Made by a program: the position numbers and the translations under genes. From Caldanaerobacter subterraneus (GTDB taxonomy: Bacteria > Bacillota > Thermoanaerobacteria > Thermoanaerobacterales > Thermoanaerobacteraceae), in contig NZ_SLWU01000002.1 of the NCBI RefSeq assembly GCF_004345675.1, positions 1 to 64,000 of the forward strand: 64,000 nt of DNA. The letters are read 5' to 3'. Shown here one piece after another: positions 1-53,997 of this stretch. Every line of letters starts with the position of its first letter. Position 1 is the stretch's first letter. The notes under the pieces were generated by a model. The model did no database searches and had not been told where the DNA came from. It saw only the letters and a program-made list of their open reading frames with translations.

Positions 1-296
1 TGCTAGAACCTCTGGATGGAACAAGTTTTAGTGCCTATGATTTCTGGCGAGTTCTCAAGGTAGCGGTGGTGACTCCACTCTCTCCTGAGAAGGTAAAAAG
101 AGACTTCTCTGTCCTGAAGGAGTTACTAATTCAGGGCAAGTGGGGAGGCCCGTAAGGGCGCGAGTTCCTGCTTCTTGGGGCAGGGGCTATGGCTTTCCCA
201 AATACCGCCTGCTGGGGATGGGGAAAGCCTGAAGGGCGGACTACAAATACCCCAGCTATCTAAACTGTGCATTTTTGTACAGTTTGGGTAACCAGG
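1..296 (+). mobile_element. IS607-family element, copy A (right end only)
   Basis: This is the right end of an IS607-type element whose left part lies outside the window. It matches the last ~300 bases of copies B (to 5578) and C (to 11759) almost base for base, including the terminal hairpin and the shared end AACCAGG. Immediately after it, mnmE coding sequence resumes in frame (Gly-Ile-Val-Val-Thr), so the element sits inside mnmE at a GG dinucleotide. That is the usual target of IS607 serine recombinases, which make no target duplication. The exact boundary is uncertain by one or two G residues. Confidence 0.85.
1..296 (+). ncRNA. Putative omega-RNA scaffold at right end of IS607 copy A
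   Basis: TnpB nucleases of IS605/IS607 elements use a right-end RNA (omega or reRNA) whose guide is the DNA just outside the element. This region is nearly identical in all three copies, well beyond any protein need. It contains GGCTTTCCC...GGGGAAAGCC and CCCGTAAGGG hairpins, and a terminal stem-loop at 263-289 just before the end. The guide would begin at 297 and read interrupted mnmE sequence. Expression and processing are inferred from the family; the start of the RNA cannot be fixed from sequence. Confidence 0.55.
3..155 (+). pseudogene. tnpB: TnpB C-terminal tail, partial (copy A)
   Basis: This is the last ~50 codons of the TnpB reading frame of copy A, ending at the TAA at 153-155; the rest lies upstream of the window. 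It begins LEPLDGTSF and matches the tails of copies B and C. The three copies agree closely through the LSPE motif and then diverge in frame. The conservation here may therefore reflect the overlapping omega-RNA rather than the protein. Confidence 0.6.
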
Positions 297-1399
297 TATA
301 GTGGTTACCTCAAAAATTCTGGAATTGGTGTTAAAGCAGGGAGCTCGCTTGGCTGAGCCAGGGGAGTTTACTAAGAGGGCTTTTTTAAATGGAAGAATAG
401 ACCTTTCCCAAGCAGAGGCGGTAATTGACATAATTACTGCAAAGACAATGCTGGCAAACAAATACGCCCAAAAGCAATTGTCTGGATACCTAGGACAAAA
501 GATGAGAAAATTAAAGGATAGAATGATGGAATTGCTTGCTCATCTTTTAGCTTTAATCGATTTTCCTGAAGATGATGTGGATAAGCTGGAAAGGTGGCAG
601 ATGTTAGAAAGTGCTAAAGAGATATTGAAAGAGATAGAAAAATTAATTGCTTCTGCCGAAAGTGGAAGAATAATAAGAGAAGGGCTTAAAACAGCTATTA
701 TTGGCAAGCCTAATGTAGGGAAGTCTTCACTTCTAAATGCCCTTTTAAAAGAAAATAGGGCGATTGTGACAGATATTCCCAGCACTACAAGGGACATCAT
801 CGAGGAGTATCTAAATGTGAAGGGGATCCCTATAAGACTAATTGACACAGCGGGGATTAGAGACACTGATGAGTTGGTGGAAAAAATAGGAGTTGAAAGG
901 AGTAAGGAAGTTCTAGGGGCGGCGGATTTAGTTTTATTTGTAATTGATGCCTCTAGAGAACTTTCAAAAGAAGATTATGAGATTTTTGATATTTTGACCG
1001 GAAAAATATTATCTTTGTTCTCAATAAGATTGACCTGCCAAAAAAAATTGCTGAAGAAGAATTAAAAAATCTTACCAAAGATGGTATAATAGTAGAGGTT
1101 TCTACTGTTAAAAAATTGGGTTGGAAAAATTAGAAGAAACCATTTATAATTTAGTATTTAAAGGAAATGTTACAATAGGGAATGAAGAAATAATTACCAA
1201 TGCAAGGCATAAAGAGGCTCTCATAAATGCCAAAAAATACATGGAAAGCGTGGTAGAAGCCATTGAAAAAGGCTACAGTGAGGACCTCATCACAATTGAT
1301 TTAAACAGCGCATTGAATGAAATTGGAAAAATCACCGGTGAGACAGCTACAGAGGATGTAATAGACCAAATCTTTGAGAGATTTTGTGTAGGAAAGTAG
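297..1399 (+). pseudogene. mnmE: tRNA modification GTPase MnmE, 3' part, IS-interrupted and frameshifted
   Basis: MnmE with MnmG installs the carboxymethylaminomethyl group on wobble U34 of certain tRNAs. The window holds the part from the end of the N-terminal folate-binding domain to the C-terminus. Visible motifs are G1 [10 protein letters not shown]3 DTAG, and a C-terminal FCVGK that carries the catalytic Cys. Three lesions break it. IS607 copy A ends at 296. One A is missing from the A-run at 1002-1006; restoring it gives the G4 motif NKID. One T is missing near 1117-1122, where the terminal frame begins at the TTG at 1121. A full-length product is impossible from this copy. Whether another mnmE exists elsewhere cannot be seen. 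Confidence 0.9.
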
Positions 1400-1408
1400 G
1401 TGGTGTTT

Positions 1409-3310
1409 ATGAGGTTTGTTGCTGGAGAATACGATGTTTGTGTAGTTGGTTTGGGACATGCTGGCAGTGAAGCTGCCTTGGCCTCTGCTAGACTTGGACT
1501 TAGTACTGTGGGGTTTGCCACAAATCTGGATGCGATAGCTCTCATGGCCTGTAATCCTTCCATTGGAGGTCCTGCAAAGGCTCAGCTAGTGAGGGAAATT
1601 GACGCTTTGGGAGGCCAGATGGCCATAAACACTGACAAGTCTCTTTTGCAGATGAGGACATTAAATACCAGTAAAGGGCCGGCTGTTCGCTCTTTAAGGG
1701 CCCAGGTTGACAAAAAGCTTTATCAGATGAATATGAAACACACCCTTGAAAGGCAGGAAAATCTCGATATTAAGCAGGCAGAGATTGTGGACATATTGGT
1801 GGAAGACAATAAAGTTACGGGGGTTGTTACAAAATTAGGTGCCATTTACAAATGTAAAGCCTGCATTATAACTACAGGTACTTTCCTAAAAGGAAGAGTG
1901 ATAATTGGAGAAGTGGACTTTGAAAGTGGTCCCAGCGGTCTTTTCCCGGCAAGCGAGTTATCTGAGGCTTTAAAAAGATTGGGATTTAAATTGATGAGAT
2001 TTAAGACAGGGACTCCTCCAAGAGTGGACAAGAGAAGTATTGACTTTTCTAAGATGGAAATACAGCCGGGAGATGAGGTTATAACTCCCTTTTCTTTCAT
2101 GCACGATAAAATAGAAATTGAACAAATGCCCTGCTGGCTCACTTATACCAATGAGAAGACTCACAAAATAATAAGAGATAACATTCACAGAGCTCCTCTT
2201 TTTACGGGGGCCATAACGGGAGTTGGAGTCAGGTATTGTCCCTCCATTGAAGATAAAGTTGTGAAGTTTCCTCACAGAGAAAGACATCAGATTTTTATTG
2301 AGCCAGAAGGCAGGGATACCTATGAAATGTACGTGCAGGGAATGTCCTCCAGCCTTCCTGAGGATGTCCAGTTAGAATTTTTGAGGACAGTTCCAGGGCT
2401 TGAAAATGTGAGGGTAATGAGACCTGCTTATGCCATAGAGTATGACTGCATAGACCCAACTCAATTAAAAGCTACTTTAGAGTCTAAGTGGATAGAGGGC
2501 CTTTATTTTGCTGGTCAAGTAAATGGGACATCTGGATATGAAGAGGCGGCGGCTCAAGGGTTGATGGCAGGAATAAACGCTGCCATGAAAATTTTAAACA
2601 AACCTCCTGTAGTTTTGGACCGCTCTCAAGCCTATATAGGCATTCTCATTGATGACTTAGTCACAAAAGGTACAAATGAACCCTACAGAATGCTAACCTC
2701 AAGGGCAGAATACAGATTGTTATTAAGACAGGACAATGCAGATTTTAGATTGACTGAGATAGGAAAAGAAATAGGGCTTGTGACAGAAGAAAGGTATGAG
2801 AAATTTTTGAGGAAGAAAATACAGTTAGAAAAAGAGATGAGAAGGCTTTCCACAGTCATGGTGAGGCCGACAGAAGAAGTCAACAACTTTTTAATTTCCA
2901 GAGGAAGCACTCCTTTAGTTTCGGGTGTAGACCTGTACACTTTATTGAAGAGACCCGAAGTTGACTACAAATCTACTAAATTTTTAGATCCAGATAGACC
3001 CGATGACATTTTAGATAGCGTTGCAGAGCAAATCGACATAAACATAAAATATGAAGGGTATATTTTGAAGCAGTTGAGACAAGTGGAACAGTTTAAGGCG
3101 ATGGAGAATAAAAAAATTCCAGAGGACATAGATTACTACCAGATCAGTGGACTCAGCAATGAAGCTAAAGAAAAACTGTCAAAGATAAGACCTACTTCTG
3201 TTGGACAGGCATCCCGTATTTCAGGAGTTTCACCTGCAGATATTTCTGTACTTTTAATATATTTACAACAGATGAGAAAAAAGAAGTCCAATGAATCCAG
3301 AATCAGTTGA
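1409..3310 (+). CDS. mnmG: tRNA uridine-5-carboxymethylaminomethyl modification enzyme MnmG
   Basis: MnmG (GidA) is the FAD- and NADH-dependent partner of MnmE in U34 tRNA modification. The 633-residue protein is normal length. It has the dinucleotide-binding motif GLGHAG at residues 14-19, the CNPSIGG signature near residue 50, an FKTGTPPR segment near 200, and the usual C-terminal helical domain ([23 protein letters not shown]). The ATG at 1409 is chosen because AGGTGG lies just upstream; in-frame GTGs at 1400 and 1403 overlap that site. It follows the broken mnmE by 9 bases and its 3' end overlaps the rsmG start. The frame is intact although both neighbours are destroyed, so its partner protein appears to be missing. 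Confidence 0.97.
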
Positions 3311-3365
3311 AATGCTATTGAAATGGAATCAAAAGATGAACTTGGCGGCGAGTACTGAGGAAGAG
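3291..3365 (+). pseudogene. rsmG: 16S rRNA m7G527 methyltransferase RsmG, 5' fragment
   Basis: The ATG at 3291, inside the last codons of mnmG, opens a frame reading [20 protein letters not shown], typical of the RsmG N-terminus. After 25 codons it is cut by IS607 copy B. Joining 3365 to 5579 restores the frame exactly (STEEE then VVIKHFL), which shows the insertion point and the absence of a target duplication. The remainder is listed at 5579-5888. Confidence 0.85.
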
Positions 3366-3426
3366 GAGGTTAAAACAGTTGAAATTAATAGCAAAAAATG
3401 ATATAATTTTAATTAGGTGATGATAA

Positions 3427-4020
3427 ATGTTATTAACTATAAAAAAGGTTAAAGAGCTGTATGATATAAGCAGAATTACATTAATAAACTGGGAAAAGGA
3501 AGGATTAATAACCCCAGTTAGAACACCAAAAGGAAGAAGAAGGTACAAAAAAGAAGATATAGAGAAGTTATTAGGCATGCTGGAAGAAAAACCGAAACCT
3601 AAAGTAGTTTTGTATGCAAGAGTGTCCACAAAGAAACAGGAAGAATATCTTAAGAATCAAATTAGAAGGCTTGAAGAGTATGCTAATTCTCAAGGGTGGC
3701 AGTATGAAGTTATATCCGAAATAGCAAGTGGGGTAAATGAAAACAGGAGAGGTTTATTAAAGCTTCTAAACAAAATCAAAAGAGGGGAAGTTGAAAAAGT
3801 TGTAATAGAATATCCTGATAGACTAGCGAGATTTGGCTTTGAATATCTCAAATTTTTCATGGAAAGCTTTGGGGTGGAACTTATAGTTTTAAACGGAAAA
3901 GAAAACGAGGAAGATGCAAATAAGGAACTAGCAGAGGACTTAATAGCAATAGTAACATCTTTTGCGGCAAGAATTTACGGACAAAAAGGCGGTAAAAAAC
4001 ATGGTAGTAATACAGGCTGA
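3427..4020 (+). CDS. tnpA: IS607 serine recombinase TnpA (copy B)
   Basis: This is the transposase of the element, a small serine site-specific recombinase that cuts and rejoins DNA through a Ser-DNA covalent link. Residues 1-50 form a MerR-like winged helix (KKVKELYDISRITLINWEKEG, then PKGRRRYKKEDI). Residues ~60-190 form the resolvase domain, with the nucleophile in ARVSTKKQ and the PDRLARFGF motif. The length of 197 residues is typical of IS607 TnpA. It differs from the copy C protein at only a few residues. Its last 20 bases overlap tnpB. Confidence 0.95.
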   Translation: MLLTIKKVKELYDISRITLINWEKEGLITPVRTPKGRRRYKKEDIEKLLGMLEEKPKPKVVLYARVSTKKQEEYLKNQIRRLEEYANSQGWQYEVISEIASGVNENRRGLLKLLNKIKRGEVEKVVIEYPDRLARFGFEYLKFFMESFGVELIVLNGKENEEDANKELAEDLIAIVTSFAARIYGQKGGKKHGSNTG

Positions 4021-5446
4021 ACTTGTGTTTTTAAGTCAAGAAGACAAACAAATAGTATTAGACTTAATGAGAAGATGGTCTTCATGCATGAGATTTGCAT
4101 ACAAAAGACTTTTAGAAGGTTATGATAGAAACACATTAAAAAGAAACCTTCAAGAAATGTTTGATTTAAACTCGAGATATGTAGATGACGCAATAATGAA
4201 AGCAAGAAGCATATTAGAATCTGCCAGTGAATTAGGAAGAAGCCCAAAGAAAGTCATTTTTGGTGGAAAAAAGCTGTTTAAAAAACTCCAAAAACGCCAT
4301 ATAAATGGAAAAGCATATGAAAAATTAAAAATTAGGTGGCAGGAGAAGAGAAAAGGAAACCTTTATTCAAGAGGGGATAAAAGCAAAAAAGGAAATCTCA
4401 ATACAAGGATGGAAATAAATGAGAATGGCACTTTCTTAAGGATAAATGTAGGAGAAAGAAAATATGTATATGCAAGAATACAGGCAGGATGGAAGAAGAA
4501 TAAAAACAAGGAAGAGATCCTGCAGGGAATTTCCAAATCGAATATACCATACTCCGTAGAGCTAAAACTTAAAAATGGCAGCATATACGCTTATTTTACT
4601 ATTGAAGAAGAGTATCCGGAAATAATGATAAAAAAAGACAAAGGAGTTATAGGTATAGACACCAATGCATATCCAGACAACATATCATGGGCAGAGACAG
4701 ATGAAAAGGGGAATCTAATAAGCTATGGCAGTATACCAATGCCAGAGCTTGCAAGCGGAAATAAAAACAAAAGAGAATATTTCAGATGGCAGTATGCTCA
4801 TGAAATAGTAAAAATAGCAAAAGAAAAAGGAAAAGCAATTGTAATTGAAGAATTAGAAATAAAAGACAAAGGTAAAAGAGGAGACTTTTCAGGGAGAAAA
4901 TCAAGAAGGATAAGGCATAACTTTAGCTACAAATCACTTTTAAAAAAGATAAAAGTTTTAGCAAAACGAGAAGGAATAGAAGTTATAGAAGTTAATCCTG
5001 CTTATACATCAATAATAGGCATGTTAAAATATGCACCGCAGTACATGATAACAAAAGATGTGGCAGCAGCCTATGTAATAGCTAGAAAAGGATTGGGACT
5101 GCAAGAAAAGATACCGGATAATTACATAAAGTTTCTCAACAAATTAACTACAAAAGAATTAGAAGAATTAGAAGACCATGTAGAAAAAACAGTTAAAAAT
5201 AAGCATTTAAAGAAAAAACATTTAAAGGAGATAAGAAAAGCAATAAAAATGATACAAAGCCTTGAGAGTGAGCCAGGAAGGGTGCTAGAACCTCTGGATG
5301 GAACAAGTTTTAGTGCCCATGATTTCTGGCAAGTTCTCAAGGTAGCGGTGGTAACGCCACTCTCCCCTGAGAGGGTATTAAGAGATGTCTCTGCCCTGAA
5401 GGGTGTATTACATTCGGGGCAAGTGGGGAGACCCGTAAGGGCGTGA
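4001..5446 (+). CDS. tnpB: TnpB RNA-guided nuclease of IS607 element, zinc-finger-less (copy B)
   Basis: TnpB is the RuvC-fold nuclease ancestral to Cas12. It cuts DNA matching a guide copied from the element's right flank and so favours retention of the element. The three RuvC acidic residues are visible: Asp220 (GIDTN), Glu283 (VIEEL) and Asp353 (TKDVAAAYVIAR). The Cys4 zinc finger that most TnpBs carry between the second and third of these is absent; the stretch is short and has no Cys. The ATG at 4001 aligns with copy C, and upstream in-frame codons overlap tnpA. The last ~60 codons run through the conserved right-end RNA region, so the true C-terminus is doubtful. Confidence 0.88.
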   Translation: MVVIQAELVFLSQEDKQIVLDLMRRWSSCMRFAYKRLLEGYDRNTLKRNLQEMFDLNSRYVDDAIMKARSILESASELGRSPKKVIFGGKKLFKKLQKRHINGKAYEKLKIRWQEKRKGNLYSRGDKSKKGNLNTRMEINENGTFLRINVGERKYVYARIQAGWKKNKNKEEILQGISKSNIPYSVELKLKNGSIYAYFTIEEEYPEIMIKKDKGVIGIDTNAYPDNISWAETDEKGNLISYGSIPMPELASGNKNKREYFRWQYAHEIVKIAKEKGKAIVIEELEIKDKGKRGDFSGRKSRRIRHNFSYKSLLKKIKVLAKREGIEVIEVNPAYTSIIGMLKYAPQYMITKDVAAAYVIARKGLGLQEKIPDNYIKFLNKLTTKELEELEDHVEKTVKNKHLKKKHLKEIRKAIKMIQSLESEPGRVLEPLDGTSFSAHDFWQVLKVAVVTPLSPERVLRDVSALKGVLHSGQVGRPVRA

Positions 5447-5578
5447 GTTCCTGCTTCTTGGGGCAGGGGCTATGGCTTTCCCAAATACCGCCTGCTGGGG
5501 ATGGGGAAAGCCTGAAGGGCGGACTACAAATACCCCAGCTGTCTAAACTGTACACTTTTGTACAGTTTAGATAACCAG
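5280..5578 (+). ncRNA. Putative omega-RNA scaffold at right end of IS607 copy B
   Basis: This is the same conserved structured segment as in copies A and C. It ends with a perfect 12-bp stem-loop (CTAAACTGTACA at 5543-5554 with TGTACAGTTTAG at 5559-5570), eight bases before the element boundary. It overlaps the 3' end of tnpB. A guide read out of the element would start at 5579 and match uninterrupted rsmG. Boundaries and expression are inferred. Confidence 0.55.
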
Positions 5579-5888
5579 GTAGTGATAAAACATTTTTTAG
5601 GCAGTTTATCTTTGGTAAGATATAATAAGATAAAACGCCAAGAAAAGGTTATAGATACAGGGACAGGAGCTGGATTTCCGGGAATTCCTTTAAAAATAGT
5701 TTTTCCTGAAATTAGACTTACTCTCTTCTTGAAGCATCTAAGAAGAAAGTCAATTTTTTGAATGTCGTTTCAAAAACGCTCTTTTTTAAGGATGTTGACA
5801 TAGTCCATTTGATTGTAGTAAAAAAGTTGATGTTCTGTCTCCAAAGTATTCTCGAAGAGAAAAAGTCATAAGGACAAAGCCTTTGTAG
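5579..5888 (+). pseudogene. rsmG: RsmG, 3' fragment, frameshifted and internally deleted
   Basis: This continues rsmG after IS607 copy B. It reads VVIKHFLGSLSLV, then the SAM-binding motif DTGTGAGFPGIP and VFPEIRLTL. Near 5720 the frame shifts; the shifted frame reads EASKKKVNFLNVVSKTL and then IVH. The middle of the methyltransferase, roughly 90-100 codons, is missing. The frame then picks up the characteristic basic tail (PKYSRREKVIRTKPL) ending at 5888. With the IS insertion, this copy cannot make a functional 16S rRNA G527 methyltransferase. Confidence 0.85.
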
Positions 5889-5890
5889 TA

Positions 5891-5935
5891 TGAGCGCTTA
5901 TTTTTTAAATTTGGTAGGCGCTTTATTTTTTATCT
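5891..5935 (+). terminator. Weak Rho-independent terminator after rsmG
   Basis: AGCGC (5893-5897) and GCGCT (5918-5922) can pair across an AT-rich loop, followed by TTATTTTTTAT. This is plausibly the original end of the mnmE-mnmG-rsmG operon. The stem is short. Confidence 0.4.
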
Positions 5936-5943
5936 TAAGTCTG

Positions 5944-6255
5944 ATAGTGTAAAATTTCAGTAGGTAACGAAGCAGGAAAATGAGGTATAGATATAAAAAA
6001 GACCTCACTGGGGAAAAATTAAAAATCAAAACAAAGGAAAGTGAGGTCGGGGATGAAATAAAAAAGATAATACAGCCAGTGCAACAGGAGAAAAAAGAAA
6101 ATACAAAGAAGAAGACATAGGAGAGTGGTTAAGAGTTTCATTACCGATACTGGAAGGTCCATTTGTGAGTAAGCCATGGATAAGATGCGTTTTTAAAAGT
6201 TATTAGCGGTGAGGTCGGCTACAAAAATTTTTACTTACAAAATCTTGACACGCAC
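5944..6255 (+). mobile_element. ISLre2-type remnant, internally deleted (copy 1)
   Basis: This is a degraded relative of the element at 13187-13700. The left end matches (GATAGTGTAAAATTTCAG), as does the right end (GTTATTAGCGGTGAGGTCGG to AAAATCTTGACACGCACTTT). Between them, only a C-terminal transposase scrap remains (GEWLRVSLPILEGPF), frameshifted and stopped. Ends such as GTGTAAAATTT and the reverse of the right end (GTGTCAAGATTTT) form an imperfect inverted repeat. A stem at 6001-6009/6040-6048 is conserved with copy 2. Confidence 0.65.
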
Positions 6256-6346
6256 TTTTGTATTTGACGCGGCTACAAAATTTTATAAAAATGTGGTAAC
6301 ATTAATTAAAAGATCAAAAAAGAAGAGTTTACGGGGCAGTGATAAA

Positions 6347-7597
6347 ATGGATACAGTAAAGATTTATGCCAATATTATAAAAGAGAATATGGACAGTCCG
6401 GAAAAAGTAAATAAGCTGATAAACCTTGGTCTTACCACTGCTTATTATTATGTGAGCTTTTTCAAAGACAGGAGGATTCCCAAATCTCTTCATTACCTAA
6501 ATAAATACTGTATAAAAAGCATAAAAGACTCTCTAGCAAATCCTCAAAATTCTGCTTGGGTAAACCTCTTTGCACCCTCTGAATTTTTGATTGCCATGGA
6601 CATAAAACCCTTATTTATTGAAGCATATTCTTCTTTCATGTCAGGCTTCTTCATTGAAGATTATCTTATTGATACTGCCGAATCGAGAGGCATGTCAAAT
6701 ACTTTATGCAGTTACCATAAAACTTTTATAGGAGCCAGTGAGCTTAATATTCTCAAAAAACCTAAATTTATGATGACTACTTCTATGATCTGTGATGCGA
6801 ATATACCTACTTTCAAGTATCTTTCAAAAAAACACGGGGTTCCACTGTACATTATTGATATTCCCTACAAATATTCTAAAAACGCCGTAATGTATGTAAA
6901 AAAACAGCTTTTGGAAGTGGCGGAAAAGCTTGGGGAAATTTTTAATAGAAAGCTTGATATTGATAAATTGAGGGAAGTTGTAAAAACGGAAAATAAAACA
7001 AGAGCACTTATGAGAGAATATTTAAATTATGCGGGAGAAAAAAGATTTATACCTACTATGACCTTTGAAATGTATATGCTCTTTGCATCCCATGTATTCA
7101 TTGGAAGCAAGGAAGTATTACATTTTTATGAGATGTTAGTGGAGGATATAAAAAGAGCTCCTGAAAGAAGTGGAAAAAACATATTTTTTATACACCTTCT
7201 TCCTATATTTGAGAAAAATTTTAAAGATTACTTTAACTTCAGCGATAAATTTCACATTGCTGGTAGTGACTTAAATTATGATTTTCTTGATGAAATTGAT
7301 GAAAACGACCCTTTCAAGGGAATTGCTGAAAAGCTTATCTTAAACTCTTTTAATGGTGAAATAAATAGAAGAGTTGCAAGAATCAAAGAACTGATAGAAA
7401 AAATAAAACCGGACGGCATTATACAGTTTTGTCATTTGGGCTGTAAACAGTCGATGGGTGGAACGTTTATAATTAAAAATCTTGCTTCAGAATTGGGTAT
7501 TCCATTTCTTTATTTAGATGGGGATTGTGTAGACAAAAGAAATAATCAAGAGGGACAGAATAGGACAAGGCTCGAAGCCTTTCTTGAAATGCTTTAG
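6347..7597 (+). CDS. 2-hydroxyacyl-CoA dehydratase-family subunit (HgdB/FldC-like)
   Basis: The protein belongs to the family of 2-hydroxyacyl-CoA dehydratase and benzoyl-CoA reductase subunits, which hold [4Fe-4S] clusters and pass a low-potential electron to the substrate. Family Cys positions are visible: Cys149 (SMICDANIP), Cys362 and Cys366 (QFCHLGCKQSMGG), and a Cys in LDGDCVDKR near the C-terminus. The 416-residue length is normal. The ATG at 6347 is chosen because the ORF upstream runs through the ISLre2 remnant. A GGGG stretch is a weak ribosome site. The next gene supplies a second subunit fused to the activator. The substrate is unknown. Confidence 0.85.
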   Translation: MDTVKIYANIIKENMDSPEKVNKLINLGLTTAYYYVSFFKDRRIPKSLHYLNKYCIKSIKDSLANPQNSAWVNLFAPSEFLIAMDIKPLFIEAYSSFMSGFFIEDYLIDTAESRGMSNTLCSYHKTFIGASELNILKKPKFMMTTSMICDANIPTFKYLSKKHGVPLYIIDIPYKYSKNAVMYVKKQLLEVAEKLGEIFNRKLDIDKLREVVKTENKTRALMREYLNYAGEKRFIPTMTFEMYMLFASHVFIGSKEVLHFYEMLVEDIKRAPERSGKNIFFIHLLPIFEKNFKDYFNFSDKFHIAGSDLNYDFLDEIDENDPFKGIAEKLILNSFNGEINRRVARIKELIEKIKPDGIIQFCHLGCKQSMGGTFIIKNLASELGIPFLYLDGDCVDKRNNQEGQNRTRLEAFLEML

Positions 7598-7619
7598 CAA
7601 TCTTTCTGGAGGTGAAAAA

Positions 7620-9242
7620 TTGATAGGGTACATTTGTAAATACACACCTGTAGAAATAATCGAAGCCTTTGGAGAAGAACCGGTAAGACTTGAGTCAGGA
7701 TATAAGTCTCATGAGCGTGCTGAAGCACTGATTCATTCAAATATGTGCAGTTTTGCAAAAGGGGTTTTGGAAAATATAATTGAAAATAATATTGAAGAGG
7801 TTATATTAACTGCGTGTTGTGATAGTATAAAAAGGCTTTATGATGTATTAAAAGATAAAGTAAAATTTATCCATCTTCTGGACCTGCCTAGAAAAAAAGA
7901 TCCTCTCGCAATAGATCTTTTTTACAATGAAATAATTGAATTTATAGAAGCGTATCAGGCCTTTAAAAACAAGAATTTTGCTGAAGAGAATTTGCTAAAA
8001 ATTCTAGAAAGCAAGTCTTTTAATAAAGAAAAACAATCTGCTGAAAGCATTGCTATATTAGGTGCGAGGCTTAAAGATGATGTTATAGAAAAAATCAGAA
8101 ATTCTTGTACAGCAAAGGTAATAAATTTTACCTGCACAGGTGAAGAAAGAGTATTCAATATCGAAGCAAAAGATAATTTATTAAAAAGCTACGCGGAATC
8201 GCTTCTTAATTTAACACCTTGTATGAGAATGGCAGAAGATCGAAGCAAGTTAATCAATAAAGAATTCAAGGGGATAATATACAACACCATAAAGTTCTGT
8301 GATTTTTATTCCTATGAGTATGCTGAGCTCAAAAGCAAAGCAGACCTCCCACTTTTAAAAATTGAAACTGACTATAACGATTCAAATAGCGGACAGATTT
8401 TAACAAGAATAGATGCTTTTTTGGAATCAACCGGTATTAAAAAGATGGAAAAACAGAAAGCCAAGAAAGGGTATTTTGTAGGAGTGGATAGTGGCTCTAC
8501 TTCTACAAATGTAGTCATAATCGACGAAAACAAAAACATAATATCATATTCTATTATTCCAACAGGTCCTAAAGCTCTAGAAAGTGCTTTTAAAGCTTTT
8601 GAAATTGCTTTAAAAAATGCAGGACTTCAAGAAAAGGATATTACATCAATAGTAGCAACAGGGTATGGAAGAGTAAGCATTCCCTTTGCAGATAGAATTG
8701 TAACTGAAATTACCTGTCACGGAAAAGGCGCGTTTTTTATAGACAATACTGTTAGAACTGTTATAGATATAGGCGGACAGGATAGCAAAGTGATAAGGTT
8801 AGATGACAGCGGCAATGTCATTGATTTTGTAATGAATGACAAATGTTCAGCAGGGACAGGTCGGTTTCTTGAAGTAATGGCGAGAACATTAGGCATTTCA
8901 ATAGAAGAAATGGCAAAAGTGCATAAGGAAGTAAAAGAAAATATCACGATTACCAGTATGTGTACTGTATTTGCAGAATCAGAAGTAATATCTCTTATTG
9001 CGCAAAATAAGGATCAAAGGGATATAATACATGCCCTCAATAAAGCCGTTGCTTCAAAAGCTATTTCCCTGGTCGACAGAATAGGGAGAAAAGGAAAATA
9101 CATGATGACAGGGGGCGTTGCCAAAAATCAGGGAGTAGTTTATGCCATCGAAAGCAGGCTGGGCGAAAAACTTATAATTCCATTTGAACCTCAGATTATC
9201 GGAGCGCTTGGAGCAGCGCTAATTTCACTTGAAGGTAAATGA
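7620..9242 (+). CDS. Fusion of dehydratase-like subunit and 2-hydroxyacyl-CoA dehydratase activator ATPase
   Basis: The N-terminal ~270 residues are Cys-containing (MCSFAKG, TACCDS, TPCMRM) and resemble a shortened HgdB-type subunit. Residues ~285-540 are the ASKHA activator ATPase (HgdC/BadF type), with phosphate loop VDSGSTSTN, DIGGQDSK and TGGVAKNQG. Cluster-binding Cys409 (DKCSAGTG) and Cys448 (TSMCTVF) are 39 residues apart, as in HgdC. The TTG start at 7620 follows GGAGGTG; it lies 22 bases after the preceding stop codon. Known activators use ATP to inject one electron into the dehydratase. Together the two genes look like a self-contained system with activator and second subunit in one chain. 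The substrate cannot be told from sequence. Confidence 0.85.
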   Translation: MIGYICKYTPVEIIEAFGEEPVRLESGYKSHERAEALIHSNMCSFAKGVLENIIENNIEEVILTACCDSIKRLYDVLKDKVKFIHLLDLPRKKDPLAIDLFYNEIIEFIEAYQAFKNKNFAEENLLKILESKSFNKEKQSAESIAILGARLKDDVIEKIRNSCTAKVINFTCTGEERVFNIEAKDNLLKSYAESLLNLTPCMRMAEDRSKLINKEFKGIIYNTIKFCDFYSYEYAELKSKADLPLLKIETDYNDSNSGQILTRIDAFLESTGIKKMEKQKAKKGYFVGVDSGSTSTNVVIIDENKNIISYSIIPTGPKALESAFKAFEIALKNAGLQEKDITSIVATGYGRVSIPFADRIVTEITCHGKGAFFIDNTVRTVIDIGGQDSKVIRLDDSGNVIDFVMNDKCSAGTGRFLEVMARTLGISIEEMAKVHKEVKENITITSMCTVFAESEVISLIAQNKDQRDIIHALNKAVASKAISLVDRIGRKGKYMMTGGVAKNQGVVYAIESRLGEKLIIPFEPQIIGALGAALISLEGK

Positions 9243-9549
9243 GGGTATCACTATAGGCTTTACTCATGTATTTATAGAGATTGAATTTTTAAAATTTGAT
9301 CAAGTCCAAATTTTTGCGTAGAATCCCTATGGTTAGAATACGAACTTTTAGTTAGGTTTTTGGTTCGTTTCTATTTCTACTCTAACCAGAAGGTGAGGAA
9401 TGGCTCAACCCCTTTTTACACAATTATATAAACTTAACTGGCTTCTTTTCCAGGGAGACTCATTCTATATTCTACAACAGAAGACTTTTTAAAGTATTTT
9501 TGGCATTACTTCCTTAAAAAATTGCCTGAAATTAAAGTGACGCTATAGG
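9243..9549 (+). other. Intergenic stretch without a recognisable gene
   Basis: No convincing reading frame is present. The only structure seen is an imperfect inverted repeat (GGTTAG at 9331 with CTAACC at 9382, and an inner GAAC/GTTC pair). It is not followed by a T-run, so it is not an obvious terminator. The stretch ends at the left boundary of IS607 copy C. Confidence 0.6.
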
Positions 9550-9610
9550 GAGGTCAAAACAGTTGAAATTAGTAGTAAAAAATGATATAATTTTAATTGG
9601 GTGATGATGA

Positions 9611-10204
9611 ATGTTATTAACTATAAAAAAGGTTAAAGAGCTGTATGATATAAGCAGAATTACATTAATAAACTGGGAAAAGGAAGGATTAATAACCCCA
9701 ATTAGAACACCAAAAGGAAGAAGAAGGTACAAAAAAGAAGATATAGAGAAGTTATTAGGCATGCTGGAAGAAAAACCAAAACCTAAAGTAGTTTTGTATG
9801 CAAGAGTGTCCACAAAGAAACAAGAAGAATATCTTAAGAATCAAATTAGAAGGCTTGAAGAGTATGCTAATTCCCAAGGATGGCAGTATGAAGTCATATC
9901 CGAAATAGCAAGCGGAGTAAATGAAAATGGAAGAGGCTTATTAAAGCTTTTGAACAAGATAAAAAGAGGAGAAGTTGAAAAAGTTGTAATAGAATATCCT
10001 GATAGACTAGCGAGATTTGGCTTTGAATATCTTAAATTTTTCATGGAAAGCTTTGGGGTAGAGCTTATAGTTTTAAACGGGAAAGAAAACGAAGAAGACG
10101 CAAATAAAGAACTGGCAGAAGACTTAATAGCAATAGTAACATCTTTTGCGGCAAGAATTTATGGACAAAAGGGTGGCAAAAAACATGATAGTAATCCAGG
10201 CTAA
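9611..10204 (+). CDS. tnpA: IS607 serine recombinase TnpA (copy C)
   Basis: This is a 197-residue serine recombinase with an N-terminal MerR-type helix-turn-helix (residues 1-50) and a resolvase domain with the catalytic ARVSTKKQ serine. It differs from copy B at only a few positions (for example Pro-Ile for Pro-Val near residue 30 and Gly for Arg in VNENG). That points to recent spread. It overlaps tnpB by 20 bases. Confidence 0.95.
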   Translation: MLLTIKKVKELYDISRITLINWEKEGLITPIRTPKGRRRYKKEDIEKLLGMLEEKPKPKVVLYARVSTKKQEEYLKNQIRRLEEYANSQGWQYEVISEIASGVNENGRGLLKLLNKIKRGEVEKVVIEYPDRLARFGFEYLKFFMESFGVELIVLNGKENEEDANKELAEDLIAIVTSFAARIYGQKGGKKHDSNPG

Positions 10205-11366
10205 ACTCATTTTTCTAAATCAAGAAGACAAACAAACAGTATTAGACTTAATGAGAAGATGGTCTTCTTGTATGAGATTTGCATATAACAGACTTTTAGA
10301 AGGAGAAAAAAGAGCAGATTTAAAAAGAAAGTTACCCCAGGTATTCAATTTAAACTCAAGGTATGTAGATGATGCAATAATGAAAGCAAGGAGTACACTG
10401 GAATCTGCGAAAGAACTAGGTAAAAGTCCAAGAAAAGTCATTTTTGGCGGAAAAAAACTGTTTAGAAAACTTCAAAAACATCATTTAAATGGTAAAGCAT
10501 ATGAAAAATTAAAAATTAGGTGGCAGGAGAAGAGAAAAGGAAATCTATATTCAAGAGGGGATAAAAGCAAAAAAGGAAATCTCAACACAAGAATAGAAGT
10601 AAATGAAAATGGTACTTTCTTAAGGATAAATGTAGGAGAAAGAAAGTATGTATATACAAAGATACAGGCGGGATGGAAGAAGAATAAAAACAGAGGAGAG
10701 ATGCTTCAAGAAATCTCCAAATCAAATATACCATACTCTGTGGAGCTAAAACTCAAAAATGGCAGCATATACGCCTATTTTGCTATTGAAGAAAAATATC
10801 CAGAAATAAAGATAACAAAGGACAAAGGAGTTATAGGTATAGACGCCAATGCATATCCAGACAACATATCATGGGCAGAAACAGATGAAAAGGGGAATCT
10901 AATAAGCTATGGGAGTATGCCAATGCCAGAGCTTGCAAGCGGAAATAAAAACAAAAGAGAATATTTCAGATGGCAGTATGCTCATGAAATAGTAAAAATA
11001 GCAAAAGAAAAAGGAAAAGCAATTGTAATTGAAGAATTAGAAATAAAAGACAAAGGTAAAAGAGGAGACTTTTCAGGAAGAAAATCAAGAAGAATAAGAC
11101 ACAATTTTAGCTATAAATCACTTTTAAAAAAGATAAAAGTTTTAGCAAAACGAGAAGGGATAGAAGTAATAGAAGTCAATCCTTCTTACACCTCAATAAT
11201 GGGGATGTTAAAATATGCACCGCAGTACATGATAACAAAAGATGTAGCAGCAGCCTATGTAATAGCAAGAAGAGGATTAGGACTGCAAGAAAAGATACCA
11301 GATAATTATATAAAGTTTCTCAACGCATTGACTGTAGATGAATTAGAAGAATTAAAAGAGCTGTAA
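10185..11366 (+). CDS. tnpB: TnpB RNA-guided nuclease, C-terminally truncated by frameshift (copy C)
   Basis: This is homologous to the copy B TnpB, with the same RuvC triad (GIDAN, VIEEL, TKDVAAAYVIAR) and the same lack of a zinc finger. One base is missing near 11358-11365 relative to copy B, which creates an early stop after ELKEL. The downstream frame (11390-11620, MKKKHLKEINKA...) is the displaced tail. The break falls after the last RuvC Asp, so nuclease activity might survive. It is more diverged from copy B than the TnpA pair is. Confidence 0.85.
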   Translation: MIVIQAKLIFLNQEDKQTVLDLMRRWSSCMRFAYNRLLEGEKRADLKRKLPQVFNLNSRYVDDAIMKARSTLESAKELGKSPRKVIFGGKKLFRKLQKHHLNGKAYEKLKIRWQEKRKGNLYSRGDKSKKGNLNTRIEVNENGTFLRINVGERKYVYTKIQAGWKKNKNRGEMLQEISKSNIPYSVELKLKNGSIYAYFAIEEKYPEIKITKDKGVIGIDANAYPDNISWAETDEKGNLISYGSMPMPELASGNKNKREYFRWQYAHEIVKIAKEKGKAIVIEELEIKDKGKRGDFSGRKSRRIRHNFSYKSLLKKIKVLAKREGIEVIEVNPSYTSIMGMLKYAPQYMITKDVAAAYVIARRGLGLQEKIPDNYIKFLNALTVDELEELKEL

Positions 11367-11389
11367 AGAAAACAGTCAGAAACAAGCAG

Positions 11390-11620
11390 TTGAAGAAAAA
11401 ACACTTAAAAGAAATAAATAAAGCAATAGAAATTTTACAAAGCCTTGAGAGCAAGCCAGGAAGGGTGCTAGAACCTCTGGATGGAACAAGTTTTAGTGCC
11501 TATGATTTCTGGCGAGTTCTCAAGGTAGCGGTGGTGACTCCACTCTCTCCTGAGAAGGTAAAAAGAGACTTCTCTACCCTGAAAGGATTACTAATTCAGG
11601 GTAAGTGGAGAGACCCGTAA
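11390..11620 (+). pseudogene. tnpB: Displaced C-terminal tail of tnpB (copy C)
   Basis: The frame after the single-base loss reads KKKHLKEINKAIEILQSLE and then the LEPLDGTSF...LSPEK segment, which is present in all three copies and ends KWRDP. It has no ribosome site of its own. It overlaps the conserved right-end RNA segment. Confidence 0.6.
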
Positions 11621-11759
11621 GGGCGCAAGTTCCTGCTTCTTGAGGCAGGGGCTATGGCTTTCCCAAATACCGCCTGCTGGGGCTGGGAAAGTCTGAAGGG
11701 CGGACTACAAATACCCCAGCTATCTAAACTGTACAGTTTTGTACAGTTTGGGTAACCAG
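11462..11759 (+). ncRNA. Putative omega-RNA scaffold at right end of IS607 copy C
   Basis: This is nearly identical to the right ends of copies A and B, including the terminal stem-loop (CTAAACTGTACA paired with TGTACAGTTTGG). A guide would start at 11760 and read the start of the DUF1002 gene. The start of the transcript and its expression are inferred from the family. Confidence 0.55.
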
Positions 11760-11762
11760 GGT

Positions 11763-13849: not shown

Positions 13850-15526
13850 TTGATCATCGGCCTTGATATGGGAGGAACTAATATAGACGGAGTTATCGTA
13901 GAAAAAGGCAAGATTATAAAAACCATAAAAAAACCTACAAATAGAGAGAATTTATTTAACTCCATCTGGACTGCCCTTAAAGAACTGCTTTCAGGATATG
14001 ATAACACTAAAATAGAAAGGATAAATTTAAGCACCACTGTATCTACCAACGCCATAGTTGAAAATAAACTTTCTCCTGTAGGAATGATTATTCAACCTGG
14101 TCCAGGTTTGCCTTATGATTTTTTAGCCTGCGGTGATGAAAACGTATTTATATCTGGATATATTGATCACAGAGGTGAAATAATTAAAGATTTTAATTTG
14201 TTTGAAATAGAAAATGCCATTAAATTATTCAAAGAAAAAAATATTAAAGCTTATGCTGTAGTCACTAAATTTTCTATTAGAAATCCTAGCATTGAAATAA
14301 AAATAAAAGAAATTTTGGAAAATGAAATACCCAACTCTTTTGTTACCATGGGACATACTATATCAGGCAAGTTAAATTTCCCTCGCAGAGTGTATACTTC
14401 TTATTTAAATTCAGCAGTGCACAGTATTTTTAATGAATTTTTAAATAATATTAAAAAATCCCTAGAAAAAGAAGGAATAAATGCACCAGTATTTATATTA
14501 AAAGCCGACGGCGGCACTATGAATATCTCTACAGCAGAGAAAAAACCAGTAGAAACTATCCTATCTGGTCCTGCTGCCAGCCTTATGGGAATTAATGCTA
14601 TGCTTCCTACCAATGAAGATGCAATATTACTAGATATTGGAGGTACTACTACAGACATATTTTTCCTTGCCGATGGAGTTCCTTTATTTGAACCGTGGGG
14701 AATAAGAATAGGTAAATATAAAACTTTAATAAGAGCAATTTATAGTGTTTCCATAGGTTTAGGTGGAGATAGTAGTATTTGTGTTAGAAATGGCAGGATA
14801 AAAATAGGCCCCCAAAGAGAAGGAGTGCCTTACGCTTTTGGTGGTCCCAAACCTACTCCTACAGATGCCATGATAACCTTAGAGTTGATAGATGAAAATG
14901 CATTTCGCCTCACTCACGATAATGTTAAAAAAGCTTATGAAGCAATGACTTTATTGGGAAGAGAGTTAAATTTATCAGCAAAAGATATGGCAAAATTAAT
15001 TCTCAGCACTATGGGAGATATTATTAAAAATAAAGTAGATGAACTTTTACATGAAATAAATAGCCGTCCCGTTTATACTGTAAAAGAATTATTGTACGGG
15101 AAAAAAATTAAACCTAAGCTGATAAATATAATTGGTGGTCCTTCTAAAGTATTAGCCCCTGTACTTGAAGAAAAGTTTAATTTACCTTGCTATTACCCTA
15201 AAAACTATTCTGTAGCCAACGCTATAGGTGCAGCTTTAGCACGACCAACTACCGAAATTACAATGTTCGTTGATACTTCTAAAAAAACACTTTCTGTACC
15301 TGAATTAGGATTATATGAAAAAATAAGTGGAAATTATACTCTTGATAAAGCAAAAGAAAAAGCTTTAGAATTAGTCAAAAAATCTGCTCTATCTCTGGGC
15401 GCTTCTATTGAGGAAATAGAAGCTGAAATAGTAGAAGAAAGTAGCTTCAATATGGTAAGAGGATTTTATACTATCGGAAAGAACATGCGAATTAAAGCTC
15501 AGGTAAAACCAGGACTTATCCAATAA
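13850..15526 (+). CDS. Hydantoinase/oxoprolinase-family (HyuA-like) ASKHA protein
   Basis: This protein has the actin-like ATPase fold of the HyuA/acetophenone carboxylase/oxoprolinase family. Phosphate loops are visible at the N-terminus (GLDMGGTNIDG) and centrally (LLDIGGTTTDIFF), with the SGPAAS motif near residue 240. Known members use ATP to open cyclic amides or activate ketones. At 558 residues it is shorter than classical HyuA (~650-700), and no HyuB partner is nearby. The TTG at 13850 follows AAAGGAGG. The next gene starts 18 bases on, so the two are almost certainly co-transcribed. The substrate is unknown. Confidence 0.8.
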   Translation: MIIGLDMGGTNIDGVIVEKGKIIKTIKKPTNRENLFNSIWTALKELLSGYDNTKIERINLSTTVSTNAIVENKLSPVGMIIQPGPGLPYDFLACGDENVFISGYIDHRGEIIKDFNLFEIENAIKLFKEKNIKAYAVVTKFSIRNPSIEIKIKEILENEIPNSFVTMGHTISGKLNFPRRVYTSYLNSAVHSIFNEFLNNIKKSLEKEGINAPVFILKADGGTMNISTAEKKPVETILSGPAASLMGINAMLPTNEDAILLDIGGTTTDIFFLADGVPLFEPWGIRIGKYKTLIRAIYSVSIGLGGDSSICVRNGRIKIGPQREGVPYAFGGPKPTPTDAMITLELIDENAFRLTHDNVKKAYEAMTLLGRELNLSAKDMAKLILSTMGDIIKNKVDELLHEINSRPVYTVKELLYGKKIKPKLINIIGGPSKVLAPVLEEKFNLPCYYPKNYSVANAIGAALARPTTEITMFVDTSKKTLSVPELGLYEKISGNYTLDKAKEKALELVKKSALSLGASIEEIEAEIVEESSFNMVRGFYTIGKNMRIKAQVKPGLIQ

Positions 15527-15544
15527 ATTGAGAGGTGAATGAGA

Positions 15545-16852
15545 ATGATTAAAGCTAAAAATAGATTGGGCATTGTATTCTTTCCTGCTTTTGACTGGGC
15601 TATTAGTCCTACTCATCCAGAAAGAGAAGAAAGACTCCTTTATACTCAAGATCAAATTTTTGAAGAAGGAATTGAAGACATTGAAGGAGTTAAATTTTAT
15701 AATCCAATTATTGCTGAAGAAAAAGATATTAACAGAGTACATTTTGTAGTGCCAGATGTAAAATCTGTAGTTACTCAATCTCACCTCATATCCGCCGGTG
15801 GAGCTATTAAAGCCCTTCAAGCAGTGATGGAAAAAGAAGTAGATAAAGCCTTTGCTTTAGTTCGTCCCCCAGGGCATCATGCTCAGAGAGTAGTTTATGG
15901 AGACAGAGGTTTTTGTATAATCAATGTGGAAGCAGTAATGCTAGAAAGAATAAGGCAAGAATATGGAAATTTAAGAGTCGCCATTGTAGATACAGACTGT
16001 CACCACGGTGATGGCACTCAAGATATCTATTGGAACGACAAAGATACTTTGTTTATTTCTCTCCATCAAGACGGAAGAACTCTCTATCCTGGAACAGGAT
16101 TTATAGAAGAATTTGGAGGCCCAGCTGCTTATGGGTACAATATAAATATCCCCTTACCTCCTGGAACAGGAGAAGAAGGTTTTCTATACGTATTAGATAA
16201 TGTGGTAATACCTATTTTAGAGGAATATAAACCTGATATAATAATAAACTCTGCTGGCCAAGACAACCATTATACAGACCCGCTTACCAATATGAACTTT
16301 ACAGCTCAAGGATATGCAAAATTAAACGAACGACTAAATCCTGATGTTGCAGTTCTTGAAGGAGGCTATTCTATTGAAGGAGCTTTGCCTTATGTTAATT
16401 TGGGAATAATATTAGCTATGGCAGGTATTGACTACTCTAGAGTGCGTGAACCAGATTATGATGAAGAGAAATTAAAACAGCCAAAAGATATTACAGAATA
16501 TATCAAAAAATTGTCAGAAATAGTATATAACCGCTGGAAAAATAAAGATGACTTGCGATTAAAAGAATTTAAAGATGTGAATTATGTAAAAAGACCTAGA
16601 CGAGTGTATTATGATACAGATGGTATATTAGAAACACAAGTTCAAAATTTTAAAATATGTAACAAGTGCTCTGGAGTAAATACAATTGAGTCAAAAAGTG
16701 ATAGAGGATATCATATATTTGCTATAACTATTCCTAGAGATGCCTGCCCTAATTGTATTGATGAAGGATACAAACTGTATAAAAATGCTTCTTCTCATTA
16801 TACAAATGTGTATTTACAAGATAGAGTAAATGACGAATATTATTCTAAATAA
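15545..16852 (+). CDS. Histone deacetylase-family amidohydrolase with C-terminal zinc-ribbon-like tail
   Basis: This zinc hydrolase has the arginase/deacetylase fold of HDACs, AcuC and acetylpolyamine amidohydrolases. The catalytic pair His111-His112 (PPGHHA) and the metal ligands Asp151 and His153 (DTDCHHGDG) and Asp240 (SAGQDNH) are present, as is the EGGYS segment. Residues ~300-435 form an extension with CNKC and CPNC pairs that could bind another zinc. The ATG at 15545 is preferred over 15539 because of spacing to GAGGTG. It forms a two-gene operon with the HyuA-like gene. The likely reaction is hydrolysis of an N-acyl or other linear amide; the substrate is unknown. Confidence 0.85.
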   Translation: MIKAKNRLGIVFFPAFDWAISPTHPEREERLLYTQDQIFEEGIEDIEGVKFYNPIIAEEKDINRVHFVVPDVKSVVTQSHLISAGGAIKALQAVMEKEVDKAFALVRPPGHHAQRVVYGDRGFCIINVEAVMLERIRQEYGNLRVAIVDTDCHHGDGTQDIYWNDKDTLFISLHQDGRTLYPGTGFIEEFGGPAAYGYNINIPLPPGTGEEGFLYVLDNVVIPILEEYKPDIIINSAGQDNHYTDPLTNMNFTAQGYAKLNERLNPDVAVLEGGYSIEGALPYVNLGIILAMAGIDYSRVREPDYDEEKLKQPKDITEYIKKLSEIVYNRWKNKDDLRLKEFKDVNYVKRPRRVYYDTDGILETQVQNFKICNKCSGVNTIESKSDRGYHIFAITIPRDACPNCIDEGYKLYKNASSHYTNVYLQDRVNDEYYSK

Positions 16853-50439: not shown

Positions 50440-50670
50440 AATAAGGAAAATGCGATGAACAGGAGAGTAGCAATAGCAGGTATACAGGGAGAAGATACCG
50501 CGACTGAGAGTATCTTTATACTCATGCTATTGCGAAGGACACCTGGGAGCTGACTGGCCGACAATGTAGGCCAGATCCGTGAACCTGCGTTAAGGGAATG
50601 AGTACCAATCAGGGTGGCACCACGGGATTAACCTCTCGTCCCTGCGTTCTGCAGACGAGGGGTTTTTAAA
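50440..50670 (+). promoter_or_regulatory. T-box leader, histidine-responsive, upstream of hisS
   Basis: The T-box element senses uncharged tRNA and switches between antiterminator and terminator. The T-box sequence AGGGTGGCACCACGGG is at 50611-50626 and the GAGAGTAG K-turn region at 50463-50470. Stem I can be folded: GCAATAGC (50470-50477) pairs with GCTATTGC (50526-50533), and AGATAC pairs with GTATCT below the GCGACTGAGA loop. The internal loop on the 3' side contains TCAT, giving CAT (50523-50525) as a His specifier, in agreement with the hisS gene that follows. The terminator is CCTCTCGTC/GACGAGGGG then TTTTT (50630-50668). Confidence 0.92.
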
Positions 50671-53808: not shown

Positions 53809-53997
53809 GAAAAAACCCTGTGGTGTTCGTGTGACCCGGTGAAAGGTTGAGCCAACACCAAAAATAAGGGAGCCTGGGCTTTGGCAGTGGATTGTAGGCC
53901 GCCTCGTCGCGGAAACATGAAGCTGCCAAGAGGGCACCCACTTTGTGAGGACGGGTTCAAAACCTACCGGTAGGCACGGCACTATGGGGTTTTTTGT
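53809..53997 (+). ncRNA. ssrS: Probable 6S RNA
   Basis: A ~190-base structured region between aspS and csoR has terminal arms that pair end to end: AAAAAACCCTGTGGTG near 53810 with CACTATGGGGTTTTTT at the 3' end, where the T-run also serves as terminator. Internal GC-rich hairpins such as CCTACCGGTAGG are present and there is no reading frame. The length, long closing stem, and position directly after aspS, as for B. subtilis bsrA, point to 6S RNA, which sequesters sigma-A RNA polymerase in stationary phase. A covariance-model match has not been run. Confidence 0.7.

Follow-up and report, generated by a model that had tools for sequence, protein, structure and literature searches.

The window, i.e., the whole stretch of DNA that was analyzed, comprises the 64 kb at the start of contig C2 in a 2.58-Mb draft assembly of 79 contigs, and its position 1 is the contig end. 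RecR of this genome matches PDB 3vdp, a protein of Thermoanaerobacter tengcongensis (now Caldanaerobacter subterraneus), at 193/194 residues, which makes C. subterraneus the probable species. It opens with a copy of the mnmE-mnmG-rsmG genes in a region with three copies of the insertion sequence IS607. Within this copy mnmE is dead, rsmG is dead too (through an IS607 copy and deletions of 77 and 261 bases), and mnmG is intact, as the initial annotation had already claimed for its 633 codons. The features are presented in Table 1.

Table 1. Features of the mnmE-mnmG-rsmG copy and its insertion sequences (window positions).
Feature	Position	Strand	Evidence
IS607 right end; element cut by contig start	1..296	+	Five-copy alignment of right ends
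mnmE remnant without residues 1-95, with two one-base frameshifts	295..1399	+	TIGR00450 and PF12631 matches on pieces; alignment with intact gene
Codon AGC, Ser replacing Gly of IPGTTRD (switch I)	781..783	+	Gly in 91/91 relatives
A-run, first one-base loss	1002..1006	+	Alignment with intact C12 and G006 mnmE
A6TT tract, second one-base loss	1110..1117	+	Alignment with intact C12 and G006 mnmE
Intact second mnmG, ATG start, 633 codons	1409..3310	+	TIGR00136, 896.5 bits; 0/147 invariant-site departures
mnmG 3' third, from about codon 414, putative gene-conversion tract	2650..3310	+	Step in third-position agreement
rsmG 5' remnant, 77-base deletion	3291..3369	+	Alignment
Complete IS607 copy within rsmG, at GG	3370..5579	+	NF033518 match; element boundaries
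tnpA of the IS607 copy in rsmG	3427-4020	+	
tnpB-like ORF of the rsmG-inserted IS607 copy	3962-5446	+	
rsmG 3' remnant, 2-base insertion and 261-base deletion	5580..5906	+	
Third IS607 copy of the region	9554..11760	+	

The mnmE remnant, numbered according to the intact MnmE encoded on contig C12, resumes at residue 96 and runs to a stop at 1399. It falls outside MnmE as defined by TIGR00450, which calls for an N-terminal folate-binding domain plus helical and G domains without interruption, given that TrmE_N is matched only from model position 84 and the frame is broken twice. A second copy of the missing 5' part was found in the assembly neither by profile search nor by DNA search, and no second jag was found in the assembly. 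The alignment of IS607 right ends, together with the alignment of the remnant against the intact mnmE genes of C12 and of the same-genus genome G006, bears out the initial annotation's account of a gene broken by an insertion plus two frameshifts. Of the two base losses it proposed, the one in the A-run stands, whereas the loss of a T near 1120 is only partly sustained: the site is the A6TT tract, where the missing base is ambiguous between A and T, A being the likelier. As both frameshifts are in homopolymers they could be sequencing errors, in which case the insertion and the lack of the 5' end would still stand.

The genome contains 16 IS607 right ends. The junction with mnmE is the GG at 295-296, given that five genome copies align through ...AACCAGG and then diverge; the left end of this element is out of view, beyond the contig start. 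The element had been described as joining mnmE in frame at 297. The junction is correct, and the mnmE frame does resume at GGT (295-297), yet a stop codon in that frame at 289-291 means that no IS protein is fused to mnmE, and hence the in-frame join means little. Family membership is indicated by a score of 230 bits against NF033518 (cut-off of 110) and by the GG found at both junctions, in mnmE and in rsmG; both operon insertions are thus IS607 at GG, which is a known insertion target of this family (PMC6188088). The window copies resemble other IS607 elements in the serine transposase and TnpB-like ORF, the insertion at GG and the lack of a flanking duplication, and present no notable difference from them. 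The TnpB-like ORF of the copy within rsmG reads into the IS right end (494 aa), and that of the copy at 10146 ends after 406 aa.

The complete operon at the replication origin

A search of the genome found an intact mnmE on contig C12, at the replication origin, accompanied by an mnmG and an rsmG of its own. The gene order is rnpA-yidC-jag-mnmE-mnmG-rsmG-noc-soj-parB, and dnaA, dnaN and recF lie on the opposite side. All three genes are whole, with 463 codons in mnmE, 633 in mnmG and 239 in rsmG. MnmE is encoded in one frame, scores 443.9 bits against TIGR00450 (cut-off of 252.6) and keeps all 53 invariant sites; eight further proteins of the genome's origin region have together lost a single invariant site. 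Given this complete operon, the window copy is an extra, redundant one.

This removes an apparent paradox. An intact mnmG beside a dead mnmE had been considered unexpected, and a second mnmE, another role for MnmG and very recent decay had been offered as explanations. The intact mnmE on C12 is the first of these, and it leaves the second unneeded, i.e., there is no MnmG without MnmE in this genome; a pseudogene seen in a window requires a check of the whole genome. Recent loss of mnmE is supported as well. The remnant has 14 private amino-acid changes (17 in the C12 mnmE), and its ratio of amino-acid to silent changes is 14:24 (0.58), the ratios of living mnmE genes being 0.33 to 2.14, with one lineage at 0. 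The lack of an excess of amino-acid changes indicates that mnmE died recently relative to the age of the copy.

In comparison with the known MnmE-MnmG (GidA/TrmE) wobble-uridine modification complex, whose two proteins jointly form cmnm5U34, the C12 MnmE and both MnmG proteins exceed the curated cut-offs by a wide margin, and the order of the origin operon is kept on C12. The difference is the presence of a second copy in which mnmG alone is intact, whereas each of the nine same-genus genomes searched has a single mnmG. In same-genus genomes, the genes surrounding mnmG are those of the C12 origin locus. In the same-genus genome G003 (L100, reverse strand, one contig), the only mnmG has an in-frame TGA at codon 364, which is Lys in relatives, and the adjoining mnmE frame is intact. 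This TGA is either a sequencing error or a nonsense mutation that arose recently.

In the trees of both mnmE (99%) and mnmG (100%), the C2 and C12 copies group as sisters, and their mnmG genes are 81% identical in DNA. The two operon copies are old sisters. A recent segmental duplication is ruled out by the 81% identity, and a donor outside the genus is unsupported, given the sister relationship with shared derived residues and the similar GC3.

Conservation of the two mnmG genes

Both proteins belong to MnmG according to TIGR00136 (cut-off of 524.85), with 896.5 bits for the window copy and 881.8 bits for the C12 copy. Both also have the catalytic-cysteine motifs, ACNPSIGG and a second one of ten residues; the role of the two catalytic cysteines (C47 and C277 in E. 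coli) is described in PMC12397908. A promoter scan upstream of the window mnmG presented no clear excess over chance.

When private changes were counted in the two copies against four same-genus outgroups, the window mnmG presented 3 amino-acid changes versus 37 in the C12 mnmG (p = 8e-8), and 45 silent changes versus 57 (p = 0.24). Conservation was also assessed against 97 clostridial sequences, which are distant relatives among the matches listed. The window MnmG departs from none of 147 invariant sites, whereas the C12 MnmG departs from three: K199N and G201S, both in KTGTPPR, and S313F. E. coli has K, G and S at these positions. In a leave-one-out analysis, just one of the 97 relatives loses as many invariant sites as the C12 MnmG, in which 10 private residues are absent from all 97. 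Residues 312-328 of the C12 protein (L004, within 8098-9999) accumulate 8 private changes in 17 residues, most of them unseen or rare among the 97 relatives. This segment is in insertion domain 2, which holds a motif that meets MnmE (PMC12397908).

By these counts, the window mnmG is, unexpectedly, the better preserved of the genome's two mnmG genes, and this is what remains of interest in the locus: the better-conserved gene is the one in the wrecked copy. Relaxed selection on the C12 MnmG is not proven, however. Its ratio of amino-acid to silent changes is 0.65, and the ratios of single-copy lineages vary widely, from 0.06 to 1.57 (0.47 in G006, 0.50 in G003 and 1.57 in G010).

The two mnmG genes are not equally similar along their length. 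Third-position agreement is 48% over codons 0-425 and 68% from about codon 414 (p = 5e-6). The breakpoint near codon 414 is sharp; its statistic was not reached in 300 permutations, and other pairs present no such step. This suggests that the 3' third has undergone gene conversion between the copies, or an exchange between sister lineages. According to the cryo-EM structure (PMC12397908), the helical domain under this conversion-like tract is the one that binds MnmE. Given the two MnmG proteins differ at only 9 of 226 residues in this domain, the window MnmG should fit the C12 MnmE.

Explanations for the locus

The window very probably contains a decaying second copy of the origin operon, with the complete C12 copy supplying MnmE and RsmG. 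Two IS607 insertions at GG, small indels and deletions would have cut this copy down to mnmG. The C12 operon has the genes for MnmE and RsmG, and hence the losses in the window copy presumably cost nothing. The window mnmG is expected to encode a normal MnmG that would join the C12-encoded MnmE in trans, and it would either be maintained as a second functional MnmG or have escaped decay so far. The decay of duplicated or transferred operons is similar, in that insertion, frameshift and deletion affect genes whose intact copy makes them redundant; the difference is that here one gene of three is whole, and more conserved than its origin counterpart. A crude Poisson estimate of mnmG having escaped disablement by luck is 0.02-0.03 (mnmE or small-indel density), which is weak evidence for selection on the window mnmG after the death of mnmE. 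Invariant-site losses (0/147 versus 1/39) are too few to tell on this.

The chances are about even that such a copy was acquired recently from a sister lineage, where it was working, and that it is now decaying, with mnmG still whole from shortness of time. The 14:24 ratio of the mnmE remnant suggests selection during nearly all of its history, and selection that long is more readily achieved in a different genome than next to a functional copy. The absence of a second copy in the nine genus genomes and the richness of the region in IS607 point the same way. However, the conversion-like 3' third of mnmG suggests the copies met long ago, GC3 is no different in the two, and the silent distances of the window mnmG to the genus are within the range of the genome's native genes. 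That the copy instead came from a contaminating strain, its frameshifts being homopolymer errors, is highly improbable. Although both indels sit in A-runs and the assembly is fragmented, the copy is on a 147-kb contig that runs on into housekeeping genes, the contamination estimate is 0.19, and the IS junction, the missing mnmE 5' end and the rsmG deletions are not homopolymer errors.

A further explanation, possible but doubtful, is complementary degeneration, in which C12 keeps MnmE, the window keeps a fully competent MnmG, and the C12 MnmG is losing or changing its function. The excess of private amino-acid changes in the C12 MnmG, at similar silent counts, is in agreement with this, as is the loss of K199, G201 and S313, invariant in the 97 relatives and common to E. 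coli, in a genome where the C12 MnmE loses no invariant site and eight other origin-region proteins lose one between them. The changes are also mainly in insertion domain 2, with its MnmE-meeting motif. Yet the ratio of the C12 mnmG is near those of the single-copy G006 and G003 and below that of G010, three invariant-site losses do not allow a firm test, and the protein is still well above the TIGR00136 cut-off with its frame open. Moreover, if the window copy arrived recently, the C12 MnmG alone served for most of its history.

Under complementary degeneration, the working pair may be the origin MnmE and the window MnmG acting in trans, although we consider this rather doubtful. It is unlikely that reciprocal loss has detached an obligate complex from its operon, such that the origin MnmE and the window MnmG would form the active enzyme and the origin MnmG would be inactive or have a new role, e.g., joining mixed MnmG dimers as a partner without catalytic activity. 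A literature search turned up no description of a split mnmEG pair. If complementary degeneration is true, the genome would offer a natural case of a two-protein machine with its components preserved in separate copies of a duplicated operon, as well as a natural MnmG variant at three invariant residues.

Other features of the window

Between two of the IS607 copies, at 6209-9242, are genes for a 2-hydroxyglutaryl-CoA dehydratase type D-component and a BadF/BcrA-type activator. At 13850-16852, a gene for a histone-deacetylase-fold protein adjoins a hydantoinase-A-like gene, both with a GC3 of 0.20-0.21, below that of their neighbours. Two RNA features have gathering-level Rfam matches: a T-box leader 5' of hisS (50446-50646) and a 6S RNA 3' of aspS (53812-53994).
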